Shown here: in pieces, positions 40,963 to 52,544 of the stretch
Position numbering within the stretch: position 1 is the first letter of the stretch
Layout of the letters: each line of letters opens with the position of its first letter
DNA from: Dictyophora rubrovolvata
Taxonomy: Eukaryota; Basidiomycota; Agaricomycetes; Phallales; Phallaceae
Direction of reading: 5' to 3'
DNA: 64,000 nucleotides
NCBI GenBank assembly: GCA_029959195.1
Contig: CP114125.1
Location: forward strand, 1,798,001 to 1,862,000
Program-made: the position numbers and the translations under genes
Notes under the pieces: model-generated
What the model was told of the DNA's origin: nothing
Databases searched by the model: none
What the model saw: only the letters and a program-made list of their open reading frames with translations

Positions 40963-42747
40963 CTACGATTGTTGCAACAAATTAAACACCGGCTCCTCGG
41001 GCAAATTAACTATGGTCCCCCGGTTACGCAATGCAAGAATAATACTATAATCAACTTCATTGTAGCACTCCCCTAGTTCTACAACTTGAATCCCCATCCT
41101 GGACACAACATCCAAAAGAGCGTCTGCTATTTCCACCCGAACTCTTTTCAAAATGAGTGTCTTGAGTTTGAAATCTGACGGCAGCGACTGCAGTACTTCG
41201 ACGCAATCGCGCACGGGATGATGGCTACCCGACAACTCGAGAGTTTCAAGACGAGGAAACGCGGTACGAATATCAACTTCCCATGAGGTGAACAATTCCC
41301 AAGCCGACGAAACCAATTCGAGATGCGTTATTTCGGGCATGAAACGTATCAGCTGGAGAAACGGGGCATGATCAAATAAACGACCGGGTTGTCCCAAGCC
41401 TGAAATATAAAGGGGGAATAATGGTTTAGGGGACGGGTGGTTAAAGGAGGTTGTTCGGAATCCGCTTGAAGGCCGCCGACGAGAGTCATCGGAACGGGGC
41501 CCCGAGTAGATTAAAAAATTGCCGGTGTGTCTGAAAAGGTTGATATACAAGTAACGATGGTTTGCAAAATGGGAGAATGTCTCGGACGGCACCAGATCAA
41601 AAATGTTGGCGGAATCTGGCGCTTCGCTGGGTGCGTAGTCGTATTTTAGATCGAAGCAAGATAAAGATCCCATGGTTCTGATATGACGCGCCAAACACTT
41701 CATATACTCGTTCGTACGACCCATTATAGCCAGCTCGAGTCTACAGAGGTTGGGAAAGTCTAGTTGATTAGTCTCGAGGATAATGGGCTGCTTGAATTGC
41801 GCGAGGTCTTCAGAGATCGTAATGTTTGAATCGGATTGCGGAACATCGACTGAAAGAGCAACTTCCAGCTCAACCAAAAGAGGACAATGAGATAGAAACG
41901 TGAGGAGTTGAGATAATGTAGGTACTTTTTTTGGATAATGGATAGAAAAATGTGTTAGCTTGTGGTGCGGAGGTTCGGGCCACGGTAAAGCGACTTCTCG
42001 AAGTCTGAGTACTCGAAGATAGGAAACGTCTACTGGTAAAAGATCTGTCCAAGGTATATCGCCGACTCCAGTCGTATTGTCTAAAGAGTATAGCCCGAGA
42101 TCCAAACTCCGAAGTCGAAGTGGTAGCGAGCCAGAATCTTGAAACACGTGTCGGATCCCCATGAACTCGAGATACGTGAGATGGAGAGTCATAGAACTTA
42201 ATCGGGGTAAAACGTGACTCGCGAGAGACTCGAAATACGATTTCGATAAGCGGTATAGACCATGCAATTTCGGATTGGAGCTCGTGCCGGTGTTTAACAT
42301 TGGATATTCGAAAAGCGGGAAATGGTATCGCGTCGTCCATGAAAACGTGAGAGGAGCATTGCCCGACCGGTTCATGAACAAAGGGATAAGCGGACGAGCA
42401 CTTATATCCACGAAACCCCATAAACTGGGCCATTCCAGTGCAGAGTTCCTCCAATGACGACAAACATGGGAGATATAAAAAATAGTCGTCCCAGGAAAAG
42501 GCGAGTTATTGATTGCCAGTGTGAAAATGTCGTATAGTATATCAGGTATAACTTTGTTTATGGCAATCTTGGAGTTGTGGATAGTGTTTAGCTCCGAAAG
42601 GATGCCGCTGAGATCTTGTCGCGTTTGTTGTATGGTATTCAAAGTCAATTGTTGTGAATTTGTGCTGAAGACAAAGCATTTGTCAATGAGCGGCGTTTTA
42701 TTTTCATAAGACACACGGTGCTTACAGTATCTCATCTCTAAATGCAT
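40963..42747 (-). CDS. F-box/LRR protein, single exon
   Basis: A long F-box protein, presumably an SCF adaptor. The first ATG in frame is at 42747 (MHLEMRYCKHRVSYENKTPL), giving about 594 residues without introns. A helix with LTLNTIQQTRQDLSGILSEL precedes the F-box, which reads INKVIPDILYDIFTLAIN and TTIFYISHVCRHWRNSALEW then PSLWGFVDIS. This is the classic Agaricomycete arrangement 'IPxEILxxIF...VCxxWRxxAL..PxLW'. The remainder is leucine-rich with irregular repeats, for example LRSLDLGLYSLDNTTG, YLRVLRLREVALPWPEP and FPRLETLELSGSHHPVRD. It ends NLLQQS. It is not closely similar to the F-box pair at 12-15 kb. Confidence 0.88.
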   Translation of the reverse strand: MHLEMRYCKHRVSYENKTPLIDKCFVFSTNSQQLTLNTIQQTRQDLSGILSELNTIHNSKIAINKVIPDILYDIFTLAINNSPFPGTTIFYISHVCRHWRNSALEWPSLWGFVDISARPLIPLFMNRSGNAPLTFSWTTRYHFPLFEYPMLNTGTSSNPKLHGLYRLSKSYFESLASHVLPRLSSMTLHLTYLEFMGIRHVFQDSGSLPLRLRSLDLGLYSLDNTTGVGDIPWTDLLPVDVSYLRVLRLREVALPWPEPPHHKLTHFSIHYPKKVPTLSQLLTFLSHCPLLVELEVALSVDVPQSDSNITISEDLAQFKQPIILETNQLDFPNLCRLELAIMGRTNEYMKCLARHIRTMGSLSCFDLKYDYAPSEAPDSANIFDLVPSETFSHFANHRYLYINLFRHTGNFLIYSGPRSDDSRRRPSSGFRTTSFNHPSPKPLFPLYISGLGQPGRLFDHAPFLQLIRFMPEITHLELVSSAWELFTSWEVDIRTAFPRLETLELSGSHHPVRDCVEVLQSLPSDFKLKTLILKRVRVEIADALLDVVSRMGIQVVELGECYNEVDYSIILALRNRGTIVNLPEEPVFNLLQQS

Positions 42748-43493
42748 GAAGGTGACCACGCCCTGCAACGTTATTACACAGTTCCATGGTTTGTGTTTGT
42801 GGTGGATGAGATCTATGAGAAACGAGTACTGAAAGAACCACGACGAAAGGATGAGTCAGATAGTGAGCGCAAACTTTACAACCAAGTTGTCGCACCTTTA
42901 TAAGCTCACAATATAACGCATGTGGTTCGATTGAAAACTGCTGTCGTAACTGCGGATGCTGTCTGACAATCAGACTGCGACGAGTATAGCTTTGTGGTGG
43001 TGTTTAGTAGTGGCCGGAAAACCTATTACGTCAGCTTTTCATTGTTTGCAACCATGTGAGGGCCGCGGTGTTCAAGTTGTCATGTCCGAGGAATGCTTAG
43101 CGTCGATCTCTTTATGTTTTTATCTCTATGGCGTACTTGTGTTCCTTGTCTTGAGGACATTTTCTATTTATAGAAAATCATGGACACTTCGTTGGACCAC
43201 ACCACAAGCTCGGTGATGTTCGACCTTTGTATGAACAAAATCCATTCTGTTGTGGTGAAATCCTTTGCGACGGGATAGATTTCTCCTTGCCCACACGCGA
43301 ACTCTTGTTTATTGTTGAAAGATATATAAAATCTTTGACACGGGACACTTTTCTCCATTGGTTAACCGCCATTGCTTTCATTGTTTGTGCTCGCCTTACA
43401 TAGGTTTCACCTTGTTAAATGCGATATTCCCACCTGATTCACTGAAGTATCTCATTTTCGCAACTTCTGTTGCTGACCGCTTTGTGGCGAACG
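42748..43493. other. Intergenic between divergent genes
   Basis: Contains a plus-strand frame (42956-43216) with a hydrophobic segment ISLCFYLYGVLVFLVLRTF. It is short, starts in no clear context and may be chance. Nothing else recognised. Confidence 0.35.
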
Positions 43494-47175: not shown

Positions 47176-47720
47176 CTAATCTACTAGTAATGTGACCAGT
47201 ACATATAACTCGCGCAAAGTATCCATCAAATGTCGTAAATAGATGGTGGTAAACAAACGCAGGAGAACAGGTCGCTCTGTCAATCTTACCTGAATTTCAG
47301 CTGCTTTGCAGACCTCACGTTTTTGAATGACATTGAAAACTTGTGCAATAAACGTAATATTTTTGGCAAAGCGTCCGTCGTGGTACCGCAACGCCCACTT
47401 TGCATGCTCCTGATATGAAACCTTTTTCCTTCGTTTGACTTCGAAACCTCCTGCACCGTATGGGAAAAGATATGGAAACGTGCCCAATAGATGGTTGGGG
47501 TCATCAAGGCTTCCTTCGAACACCTCGTCTTGTTCATTTCGTCTTGCGCATTCATTTACGTATCCCTTTCCTCGTCGTTATAAATACCGTTCCTCGTCCT
47601 GCTCTTCAACATTTCAATTCCCATGCTGGAAGTTGCGAATACCATGTCGCATTAACTCCTTAGTAGGTATATCGTAGCCGTTAATGTTTACAACGGCATT
47701 TTCGGAAAGAGGTATTATCA
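47176..47720 (-). mobile_element. Helitron N-terminal domain relic
   Basis: The frame at about 47240-47555 reads LLGTFPYLFPYGAGGFEVKR, KKVSYQEHAKWALRYHDGRF and ITFIAQVFNVIQKREVCKAA. This is the Helitron helicase-like N-terminal domain (LFPYGxGG...HxxWxLxYHDxRF...QKR). Upstream, up to about 47720, the sequence still reads as Helitron-like (IPLSENAVVNINGYDIP) but contains stops. No Rep or helicase domain follows, since the next gene starts at 47007. It is a short, broken fragment of a rolling-circle DNA transposon. Confidence 0.78.
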
Positions 47721-48568: not shown

Positions 48569-49688
48569 TTAAATGTAAATATTGGCATCAGAAGCGATAG
48601 GTTGGAAATAAGTCGTTATCCGACCAGTGACAACTTTCCACGGGTGATTAATGTAAGTGAGCTGTTGATATCTCTCTCCCGGATTCAGCGTTTTATAGAG
48701 CACAAGCCCTCCTTGGAAGTTAATCCAAAAGACATCCGCAGCGCTGGTACTGCTATTGATAAAATTGATAGACGTCGCGGGTCCATTAGTCGTTGATCGA
48801 AGGTTTTCTGCTTCGGATCCTTGAAGGGAAACAAGTGCCTAACAGGAAGCAAAGAGTTATTAGTTTTCTCAAAAAAAAAAAAAGGTTTCGTGAGACGCAG
48901 TTACAGGGTTGTCTGTGGCTCCAATGAGAGCAATGTAATCAGCCCCAGCAGCTGGGAGGAATCGCTGAGTAGCTTTCCCTCCATTGATGACAACCTCCCA
49001 AGGATGACCGACAAAGGTTGCTTGTTGGTAACTTTCCCCAGCCCCGAGGGTTTTGTATAGCTGACACTGGCCTTGGTAGTTGATCCAGTCAACATTGACA
49101 TTCTCTGCAGTTTCATTGACAAATGTGATGTACGCCGCTGTCTGACTGTCAATGGACTTGAGATTGGTTACGTCGCGATTATGGGCTAAAGGGTAAAGCT
49201 TCCCATGACAGTTAGAATAGGAGCGTACAAAGATAAGAGTAATAATACTTGCCCGAATTCCTTCATTTGAGGAAGGGAGACCCTTCAATTCATTAATATA
49301 AAGGTCCGTGTGAGGTCTGGAATTAAAATGACGATAAAATCAACATGCAGAAAAACATACCCGATTGGAAGCCTTATCGGAATCGATAACAAGAAACTCA
49401 TTTTTTTTTATCACATTCACATTTTGAGTCTGGCCTTGGGAAGTAACTTGAAATATTTGCCCGATGGTTGCAGGCACCTCCGTTTTGCTATTTGGCTGAA
49501 CTGTGGTGACCACCACTGATTTCCCATTAGAACCAACTGTAACAGGGATGTTTGAATTATTTTTGATGGTGAAAGTGGCTTTTTGGCTTGGGTAAGGTGA
49601 TTCGGGCTGAAAAAAAAACATAAACAGTGAAGTGGAAAGAAAAGAGAAGTTTGGGGGGGTACATCATACATACATGAATCGAAGTCAT
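48569..49688 (-). CDS. Protein with two tandem VHL beta domains
   Basis: The product has two copies of the von Hippel-Lindau beta domain. Copy 1: YITFVNETAENVNVDWINYQ then GQCQLYKTLGAGESYQQATF and VGHPWEVV. Copy 2: INFINSTSAADVFWINFQGG then LVLYKTLNPGERYQQLTYIN and HPWKVV, ending YFQPIASDANIYI with stop at 48569-48571. In animal VHL this domain binds hydroxyproline. The alpha domain that recruits Elongin C is not visible here. Upstream, exon 1 (49674-49688, MTSIH) and exon 2 from 49606 (PESPYPSQKATFTIKNNSNI) encode a small beta-rich domain. The join between exon 2 (ending SDKASNR) and the next exon (DLYINELKGLPSSNEGIR) is out of phase in my reading, so the 5' part may be a separate gene or have a shifted splice site. 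An intron starting GCAAGT is likely at about 49253. Confidence 0.72.
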
Positions 49689-51057
49689 AGTACGTCACAG
49701 AATTTGTGTAGTGTATAGTAGGTATTTAGTAAGAAGGAGTCGAGAACAGCCTATGCGTTAATACGTTTGTCGAAGAAAATGATGCTGGTTTAAACGTTTC
49801 TTGAATACGTTTTCTTTCACTGTTTTGCGCACTTTTGAATGACCAATGAGATACTCTCTGAATATCAGCTGACTGACTCAAACAGTGAAATGAATTCGTC
49901 AACCAGGAATCGGTGTGATACTAATGGAAGATGTCAGATTGGAAAAGAGATTTTTATTAAAGCTTCTATGGAGGTTTTATATACATAATACAGGTCATCT
50001 CAAAGCGGTCCGTTTAAATTGTTTCAATATTCGATTTGATGTGCCTGTACCGTGAAAACTGAGGTAAAAGCATTTGTTTTGAGCTTCTCAATTAATTGAA
50101 GCCGAACATGACATTATGTGCTGAGGAGACTCGAGGCATATAGTAATATCAATACCGTCGCGTTACTAGTAGAAGATTCGAGCAGGCCCTCCATTCCACA
50201 TTCCACCACATTCGTTTAGGGAGTCTCCTAGAAGGAGATTAATACGACGTTCCCTACATATCTTGGCCTCACTGGCAGCAGCGCCCAGAACCCCCGATGT
50301 ATGCGCGTTTACCGAACGAAGAATATTTTAATAATCCGCCAGAACTCAACTACATGCATGAATATTATCATGTACGCGAGACAGTTCCGTGCCGACGATG
50401 ACGTTTAAATTGTTCATCATGGATTTTATGTTGAACTTTATGATCTGTCACGGTCGTCGCGCTGTCAATTCTTCTCTTCTTGGTCCCGACTCGTCTCAGA
50501 GAGAGATGTCGTTACCCGCTGCCGGAGCTTCCTGACACCTGTCAGAACGATCCAGTTTTTATCCGATCAGAGTGGGCAGTGGGACGGGGACACGAGAAGC
50601 CGGTCAACCGTGGATGAACTCGAAAGAATATTATTAATAGTATTACATACGACAATTTCAACATCGGAGTACTAATCCGTCAAAACGGGCCGTCTAACTT
50701 GCTTCCATTTATTATTGTTCATTTTATATTTGTATTAGATTTTAAAAGTCCGTCTATTATTCTGCATTGTTTTCTCGTTCAATGATTCTAACTTCTCGTC
50801 GTTCTGTTCCTGCGCAAACACCTTCCGAATCATATCTTGAAAATTTATACGTATCTCTCTAGTCGGAGTAATCCGTCCAATAAACTTGTGGACAAGGAAT
50901 TTGGTCTGAATTACCAAAGTATATTTCCAATAAACCCAAATATATATTGCAAAATACGGTATATAGACAAGACGAAAGGCGTGTGGCGTAATAGATGCAG
51001 CGAAAGAAAGAAGAAAAGGAAAGAGAAAACCTGCAATAGGGCCACACACATAGAGTT
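49689..51057. other. Intergenic, no gene seen
   Basis: About 1.4 kb. A frame at 50735-51061 (minus) overlaps the 3' end of the cupredoxin gene and is probably its shadow and UTR. Nothing else recognised. Confidence 0.4.
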
Positions 51058-52259
51058 TCAAACTGTAATGTTAGAATTCAAAGCGAGCTGCAAGTATGCA
51101 TCAAAGTCGTGAGTTTGACCATCAGTATTGGGGTTGATGCCAACAACCATTCCTTGAGCGCAGTGACCTGTCTGACGGCAATAGCCCCTATATCGAGGAA
51201 TAAGAAAGAGTGGTTAAGATGGGGATAAGGTTACGTAAAATGACTTGCCAAATTGGTTTTGTGTCGTTTATCAAGATGCTGAATGTCTGATTTTGGTTGT
51301 TGGCGGGTGGAAGACTAGGAGGGATAAAGGACTGCTCTTGGATTGAATCGTGAATGGGTGGACTTACAAGCCAGAATCAAAGCCATCAGCGCCGCCATTC
51401 AACTCTTTCGGAATGGGAGCACACGGGAAACCAAAGGTGGATTGAGTAACGGTATGATTCTTGAGACCAAACACAAAGGTGACGGTGTCGCCCTTGTTTG
51501 CGGAAATGGACGGGGGGTCATACTTGAGTATTGGTTTCCCCGCAGCATCGAGACCTCCGACTTGGATGGTGTGCGTGGTTGGGGCGGCAGTGGTGGTGTT
51601 AGTAGTAGCAGTAGTAGTCGAGTTGGCCTGTTGGGCCTTGCCGATGGCGAGGGCTGCGTCTTGGAAGTTTGTAAAGGTATTGCCTGTTGTTGGAGCGTTG
51701 GCGGCGAAGACCATACCCTGGCCACAGTGTGTTGGTGGGCCTGGCTGTTTGCAGTAGACCCAGATGGGTTTAGTGTCTTTAACTTGGACGTCGAATGTAG
51801 GGAGACTGGCGTCGGGAGTAGTTGGTGAGACTGGCATGCTATATACACGGGGGTTAATCTGAGACTCTTTTTACTGGGCTCGTGTGCCACTTACAACCCC
51901 GAGTCGAAGAAAGACGGATCTTGGAGTGCTGGGCCACATGGATTCTGGAAGCTGGTTTGAGTTACAGTGTGGTTTTTTGGATGGCTGTGAAGTGTTTAAG
52001 AGATGTTACTCGACGGAGAACATGGAGAATCAGCTGACAATACAAAACGGAGGGTGTCGCCAGTCTGGGCTGGGATATTGTCTGGGTCGAATGTGAGACT
52101 GCCGTTGCCAACTTGGATAACGTGCACGTTCTGGTCGATGGTGAGAGATAGTGGGTGAGATAACGAGGAGACAGACATTACCTGACTCAGGACTAGTCCA
52201 ACAAAAGAGCTTAGAACAACAACACTTCTCTTCATCGCCGTCATCATCGCCATCATCAT
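51058..52259 (-). CDS. Secreted protein with two cupredoxin domains
   Basis: An extracellular cupredoxin-like (plastocyanin fold) protein. The start at 52259 gives MMMAMMTAMKRSVVVLSSFV; a start at 52235 (MKRSVVV) is equally possible. Either provides a signal peptide. Domain 1 has VHVIQVGNGSLTFDPDNIPA, GDTLRFVL and, after splicing, HTVTQTSFQNPC and WVYCKQPGPPTHCGQGMVFA. A Thr-rich linker follows (NSTTTATTNTTTAAPTTHT). Domain 2 has KYDPPSISANKGDTVTFVFG, KNHTVTQSTFGFPC and WGYCRQTGHCAQGMVVGIN. In each, His, Cys, His and Met are spaced as in type-1 copper sites (H...C...H...M). The last intron begins GCAAGT (GC-AG) and the stop is at 51058. Mushroom genomes carry many such serine/cupredoxin proteins of unknown role. 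Divergent from the CBM19-like gene. Confidence 0.85.
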
Positions 52260-52544
52260 CGCAGTCGTAGTCGTCGAAGAAAAAGAAAAAGACGCTTTTT
52301 CTCAAGCATGTGGATTGACACGGCCATCGTTCACCGTCGAAGGGAAAAACAGCGCGGAGTTAACCTGCCTCGCTTGTGCAACTGACAAAAAACAGCGGGC
52401 GTCTAATTTCTTGACATCTTGGTGGACTGTGATTGGATGCAGAGTTGGACTGCGTTGTTGGACTATTGTCCTCGTCACGTCACTTTTCTTATTGTCCACC
52501 GTCTTATTGTCCTTGCCATGTAGTACGTCCAGCATCCAACTAGG

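Follow-up and report, generated by a model that had tools for sequence, protein, structure and literature searches.

The window analysed here, a stretch of 64,000 nucleotides, is part of contig 9 of the Dictyophora rubrovolvata genome (28.24 Mb, 11 contigs). The gene under study, with all the features described below, lies on its minus strand at 48569..49688. In the preferred predicted model, the exons from high to low coordinates are 49688-49674, 49606-49361, 49198-48905 and 48838-48569, giving 825 nt and 274 aa, and the coordinates place all three introns in phase 0. Exon 1 (49674..49688) carries the start codon and encodes MTSIH. An in-frame stop is found two codons upstream, and no other ATG between 49607 and 51300 is followed in frame by a phase-0 GT[AG]NG donor. 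Intron 1 (49607..49673) is 67 nt long (GTATGT...TTTTTTTTTCAG, phase 0); a pattern search for a branch-like site in it gave no match. Exon 2 (49361..49606) encodes the 82 aa of D1, a probable degenerate VHL-beta fold. Intron 2 (49199..49360), which the preferred model makes 162 nt long, ends with GGGAAG, and its join is tentative. Exon 3 (48905..49198) encodes D2 (98 aa), assigned as a VHL beta domain by Pfam, AlphaFold, Foldseek and VIA-align, and exon 4 (48569..48838) encodes D3 (89 aa plus stop), assigned likewise by Pfam; the pocket residues are kept in both. They are separated by intron 3 (48839..48904, 66 nt, GTAACT...CTAAT...GTTAG, phase 0), and the stop codon (48571-48569) directly follows D3.

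The first-pass annotation had expressed doubt over the 5′ exon join near 49300. This doubt was justified: when the acceptor ends at 49317, the D1 frame runs into a stop. The frame stays open with five others, exon 3 then starting at 49282, 49198, 49156, 49141 or 49102. We preferred 49198 because CTAAC lies just before it, beginning 17 nt before the 3′ end of the intron, and because it matches the start of exon 4 in the D2/D3 alignment; this choice is a judgement, not a proof. A single protein requires a long intron with an AAG 3′ end. The region can also be read as encoding two products, D1 alone, terminated soon after exon 2, and D2-D3 starting from the ATG at 49266, issued from two transcripts or from alternative splicing. 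In that case a 44-nt intron would run from GTATGT at 49360 to CAG at 49317 and a 50-nt phase-0 intron from GTATTA at 49248 to GGGAAG at 49199; from ATG 49266 onwards, the reading frame of D2-D3 is open. However, the D1 stop would lie within a few dozen bases of this ATG, so that separate gene ends would hardly fit, whereas the single 162-nt intron keeps one frame across all domains. We regard two products as a fair but lesser possibility; D1, D2 and D3 are probably carried by one 274-aa protein, with phase-0 introns between the exons of its domains.

Several other features were observed in the window, all on the minus strand where positions are given. A weak Helitron_like_N match (15.1 bits, cut-off 28.9) at 47179-47577, roughly 1 kb past the gene's 3′ end, is perhaps a transposon remnant. 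Frames resembling secreted cupredoxin-type proteins lie at 51364-52301, with no Pfam match at E ≤ 0.1. A long open frame at 40966-42855 shows an F-box-like match below cut-off (14.0 bits, cut-off 24.3), and a neighbouring frame matches the fungal-kinase Pfam family PF17667 (28.5 bits, cut-off 24.1).

The presence of two tandem VHL beta domains, as first proposed from the letters of the DNA, was confirmed by profile search: PF01847 was found above its Pfam cut-off of 21 bits in both D2 (36.1 bits, E 6.6e-9) and D3 (30.0 bits, E 5.3e-7). The pattern ascribed to both copies is indeed present in each (WIN[YF]QG, LYKTL, GE.YQQ.T, HPW.VV). A PDB sequence search matched human VHL (E 0.0022). The AlphaFold model of D2 (pLDDT 79.8) retrieved VHL in all 50 Foldseek matches listed (best E 1.6e-7) and was aligned to VHL by VIA-align as well; its matches to giant-virus models were far weaker (best E 7e-4). 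NCBIfam profiles found nothing in D3, and all their matches to D1 and D2 were far below cut-off. D2 and D3 share 39% identity, a D3 search of its own genome recovered only itself and D2, and the two are sister copies in the tree (97/97, computed with loci L063 and L065 left out; the bootstrap is not settled). Over 88 aligned codons they differ at 36, 37 and 58 first, second and third positions, respectively, as expected for coding DNA under selection.

The start of D2 also weakly resembles a PDB entry (9euf_8, ‘CBM-cenC domain-containing protein’, E 0.062) and staphylococcal phage proteins, some of which carry a virion structural annotation (E 0.3 to 0.5); both resemblances may be due to chance. 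We discounted the phage tblastn matches (best E 0.3), which are at chance level.

We then compared the ligand pocket with that of human VHL. According to the section of PMC9528729 devoted to it, the hydroxyproline site of VHL comprises Trp88, Tyr98, His110, Ser111, His115 and Trp117; the hydroxyl is bonded by Ser111 and His115, and the His110 contact is made by the backbone. In the alignment to human VHL, both D2 and D3 carry W, Y, T, H and W at positions 88, 98, 111, 115 and 117, Ser111 being replaced by Thr in each. A check of these residues had been suggested at the outset, and the pocket is kept in both copies. The surroundings differ from human VHL: N67, R69, P99 and H110 are replaced by D/T, Q/G, K/K and A/L in D2/D3, and I109 is also changed, so that peptide specificity is unpredictable. 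The core that would accommodate a hydroxylated ring is thus kept, and the grip on the HIF peptide is not. Computation thus shows that D2 and D3 are VHL beta domains and each other's sisters, with their pocket residues kept and their HIF-context residues changed. A decaying or unexpressed gene, to which the weak Helitron-like stretch (below cut-off) about 1 kb away and the awkward intron 2 might point, is quite improbable, as the frames of the domains are open, differences between D2 and D3 fall mostly at third codon positions and both pockets are intact.

The small beta-rich domain that had been noticed ahead of the two copies is present: D1 is predicted to be all-strand, with seven strands; what had been missed is its probable fold. 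Its best structure model has a pLDDT of 68.4 and the remaining four range from 62.3 to 39.8; the best Foldseek row obtained for D1 was not VHL. Against Pfam PF01847, D1 gave no match at E ≤ 10 and did not reach the curated cut-off of 21 bits. Among 1000 shuffles made, of which 975 and 971 were scored, the D1 profile score was reached by 37/975 and 29/971; it thus falls within the shuffle range, and D1 as a VHL copy is unsupported by sequence. No D1 paralogue was found in its own genome at E ≤ 10. On weak evidence, D1 is taken as a probable degenerate VHL fold, a worn first copy.

In animal pVHL, the alpha domain recruits elongin C and cullin 2. Compared with animal pVHL (human VHL; PDB 1lm8, 1lqb, 4awj), the fungal model has no alpha domain and carries two clear copies of the beta domain plus a probable third. 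The statement that no alpha domain is visible held: the model ends right after D3, and Pfam VHL_C gave no match at E ≤ 10 in the three gene pieces. Over the genome, the VHL_C and Ofd1_CTDD profiles each gave 0 matches, but their controls were silent too, so these counts are no evidence of absence; genome profile searches were run exon by exon and can miss split genes. With the pocket kept and the alpha domain absent from the model, a binding protein appears likelier than a ligase adaptor, in agreement with what had been suggested initially. The protein might still be a ligase adaptor, the alpha-domain role being filled by D1, by an unseen exon or by a partner protein. In favour of this, the animal beta domain functions solely within a ligase, and the genome VHL_C search had a silent control. 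D1, however, is predicted all-strand, the gene ends after D3 and VHL_C is absent from the gene pieces, which makes such an adaptor very improbable.

VHL beta domains are not restricted to animals. A bacterial VHL beta-domain protein appears in print for Litorilituus sediminis, in the part of PMC9002001 concerned, and a choanoflagellate VHL homologue is reported in the relevant section of PMC9618697. Using a DNA-pattern scan, we found relatives in Micromonospora, Actinoplanes, cyanobacteria, alphaproteobacteria and other bacteria. Over 79 residues, bacterial proteins are up to 41.8% identical to D2; they share the HPW motif with the fungal copies and have mostly the same pocket. A 62-residue fragment of human VHL is 29.0% identical to D2 and 30.6% to D3. 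A bacteria-only profile scored 81.5 bits with D2, 74.2 with D3 and 34.3 with the human fragment, the last score being lowered because the human row is only this 62-residue fragment. By these profile scores, the fungal domain has bacterial relatives closer than the human fragment.

The scan seeded with plasmid relatives yielded 59 confirmed stretches out of 87, all bacterial loci; a first genome pattern scan (0/63 stretches confirmed) and viral contigs (0/203) gave none. Since the 59 loci were selected by the pattern [QV]-x-T-[YF]-[VI]-[TGN]-H-P-[WF]-[VEK], which covers the motif, its conservation among them is by construction. We also searched with the whole Pfam profile, which matched 11/386 genomes in a phylum sample around a Calothrix and 7/398 in one around a Bradyrhizobium (centres included), and none of 14 control genomes. 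The resulting set comprises 19 loci, of which L085 was lost for lack of a domain match; as L088 and L093 overlap, the 20 rows reduce to 18 distinct domains, all from two phyla only. Trp88 and Ser/Thr111 were present in 18/18, His115 and Trp117 in 17/18 and Tyr98 in 12/18. Three of the 18 (L071, L075 and L082) are on contigs matching in size those that carry the pattern-set loci L010, L029 and L043; without them, 15 independent domains remained, with Trp88 and Ser/Thr111 in 15, His115 and Trp117 in 14 and Tyr98 in 9. At L088, overlapping L093, two adjacent genes of one proteobacterium each carry one VHL beta domain.

Pfam or InterPro may already list fungal VHL members. Among the titles and abstracts listed in an open library for the words searched, none dealt with a VHL protein, tandem or otherwise, from a fungus. 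The VHL beta domain itself is already known, bacteria included.

The bacterial and fungal proteins differ in their architecture. Two copies at domain E < 1 were found in 0/59 pattern-found bacterial ORFs, whereas the fungal protein has two clear copies. A hydrophobic 17-mer precedes the domain in 48 of 53 stop-to-stop bacterial ORFs with a closed 5′ end; this count, obtained with a rough hydropathy rule on stop-to-stop frames and not with a signal-peptide predictor, may be taken as a rough sign of export or anchoring. In contrast to such putatively exported proteins, the fungal model starts with MTSIH followed by D1, with neither signal peptide nor membrane anchor before the domain, and a search of 49607-51300 for single-piece first exons with a phase-0 donor found no other candidate that would give a hydrophobic start. 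The model contains one Cys in 274 residues. A Cys pair occurs in 15 of the 18 distinct profile-found bacterial domains but in only 13/59 pattern-found ones, so that the lack of both Cys in D2 and D3 is weak evidence. The missing signal peptide, the single Cys and the missing Cys pair point weakly to a protein acting inside the cell.

We propose, with a probability of roughly 0.45, that the gene encodes tandem VHL-type beta domains, with a worn D1, D2 and D3 carrying an intact hydroxyproline-type pocket and no alpha domain, acting as an intracellular two-pocket reader or scaffold. In both D2 and D3, the Trp/Tyr/Thr/His/Trp pocket would hold a single 4-hydroxyproline of a partner, or a comparable hydroxylated, ring-like group, and the Thr-His pair of each aromatic pocket may bond the hydroxyl. 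Two pockets on one chain would permit two-point binding, and this would suit a reader or scaffold of a hydroxylated partner inside the cell, without degradation, better than a degradation adaptor. Alternatively, the pocket could be real and conserved and serve another ligand, such as a sugar, some other small hydroxylated molecule or an unmodified proline or aromatic motif; the reading of hydroxyproline would then be an animal specialisation. The bacterial domains keep the same pocket, the HIF-context residues are changed in the fungal copies, and we know of no hydroxyproline ligand for bacterial VHL beta domains. The pair that bonds the hydroxyl, Ser/Thr111-His115 (human VHL; section cited of PMC9528729), is nevertheless found in both fungal copies, and the profile-found bacterial domains keep Ser/Thr111 in 18/18 and His115 in 17/18. 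Another ligand is therefore a real but lesser possibility, and we retain the hydroxyproline-type reader or scaffold as our preferred reading.

Candidate partners, sources of a hydroxyl mark included, were searched for in the same genome. PF13640 gave two matches, one above cut-off. At one place (L066, 1120-2361), an uninterrupted 414-aa frame carries this 2OG-Fe(II) oxygenase domain; the second oxygenase-like place (L067) is not continuous but falls into two frames or exons. The 414-aa frame is a possible source of the mark, and nothing ties it to the VHL protein. PF13661 gave 0 matches in an exon-by-exon search whose control was working, and a collagen profile gave one match at the edge of its cut-off. 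On the fungal side, the relevant part of PMC5800844 describes oxygen-dependent degradation with protein components that differ from those of the HIF pathway, and the passage of PMC9618697 on Ascomycota states, from nine genomes, that this group possesses HIF homologues.

A broader scenario, which we hold to be a long shot, is that the reading of prolyl hydroxylation by VHL-type domains predates the animal HIF pathway and extends beyond it: such reading would be mostly extracellular in bacteria, intracellular, two-pocket and ligase-free in the fungus, and the ligase-recruiting domain would have been joined later in animals. Under this scenario, the fungus would have its own hydroxyproline signalling. 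Should the fungal protein bind hydroxyproline, it could also serve as a naturally occurring tandem reagent for this modification. Nearly all that is known of VHL concerns its role as ligase arm of oxygen sensing in animals. With a ligase-free fungal protein bearing two intact VHL pockets, and sparse bacterial relatives whose pocket is much the same, whether hydroxyproline recognition preceded the ligase would become directly testable.
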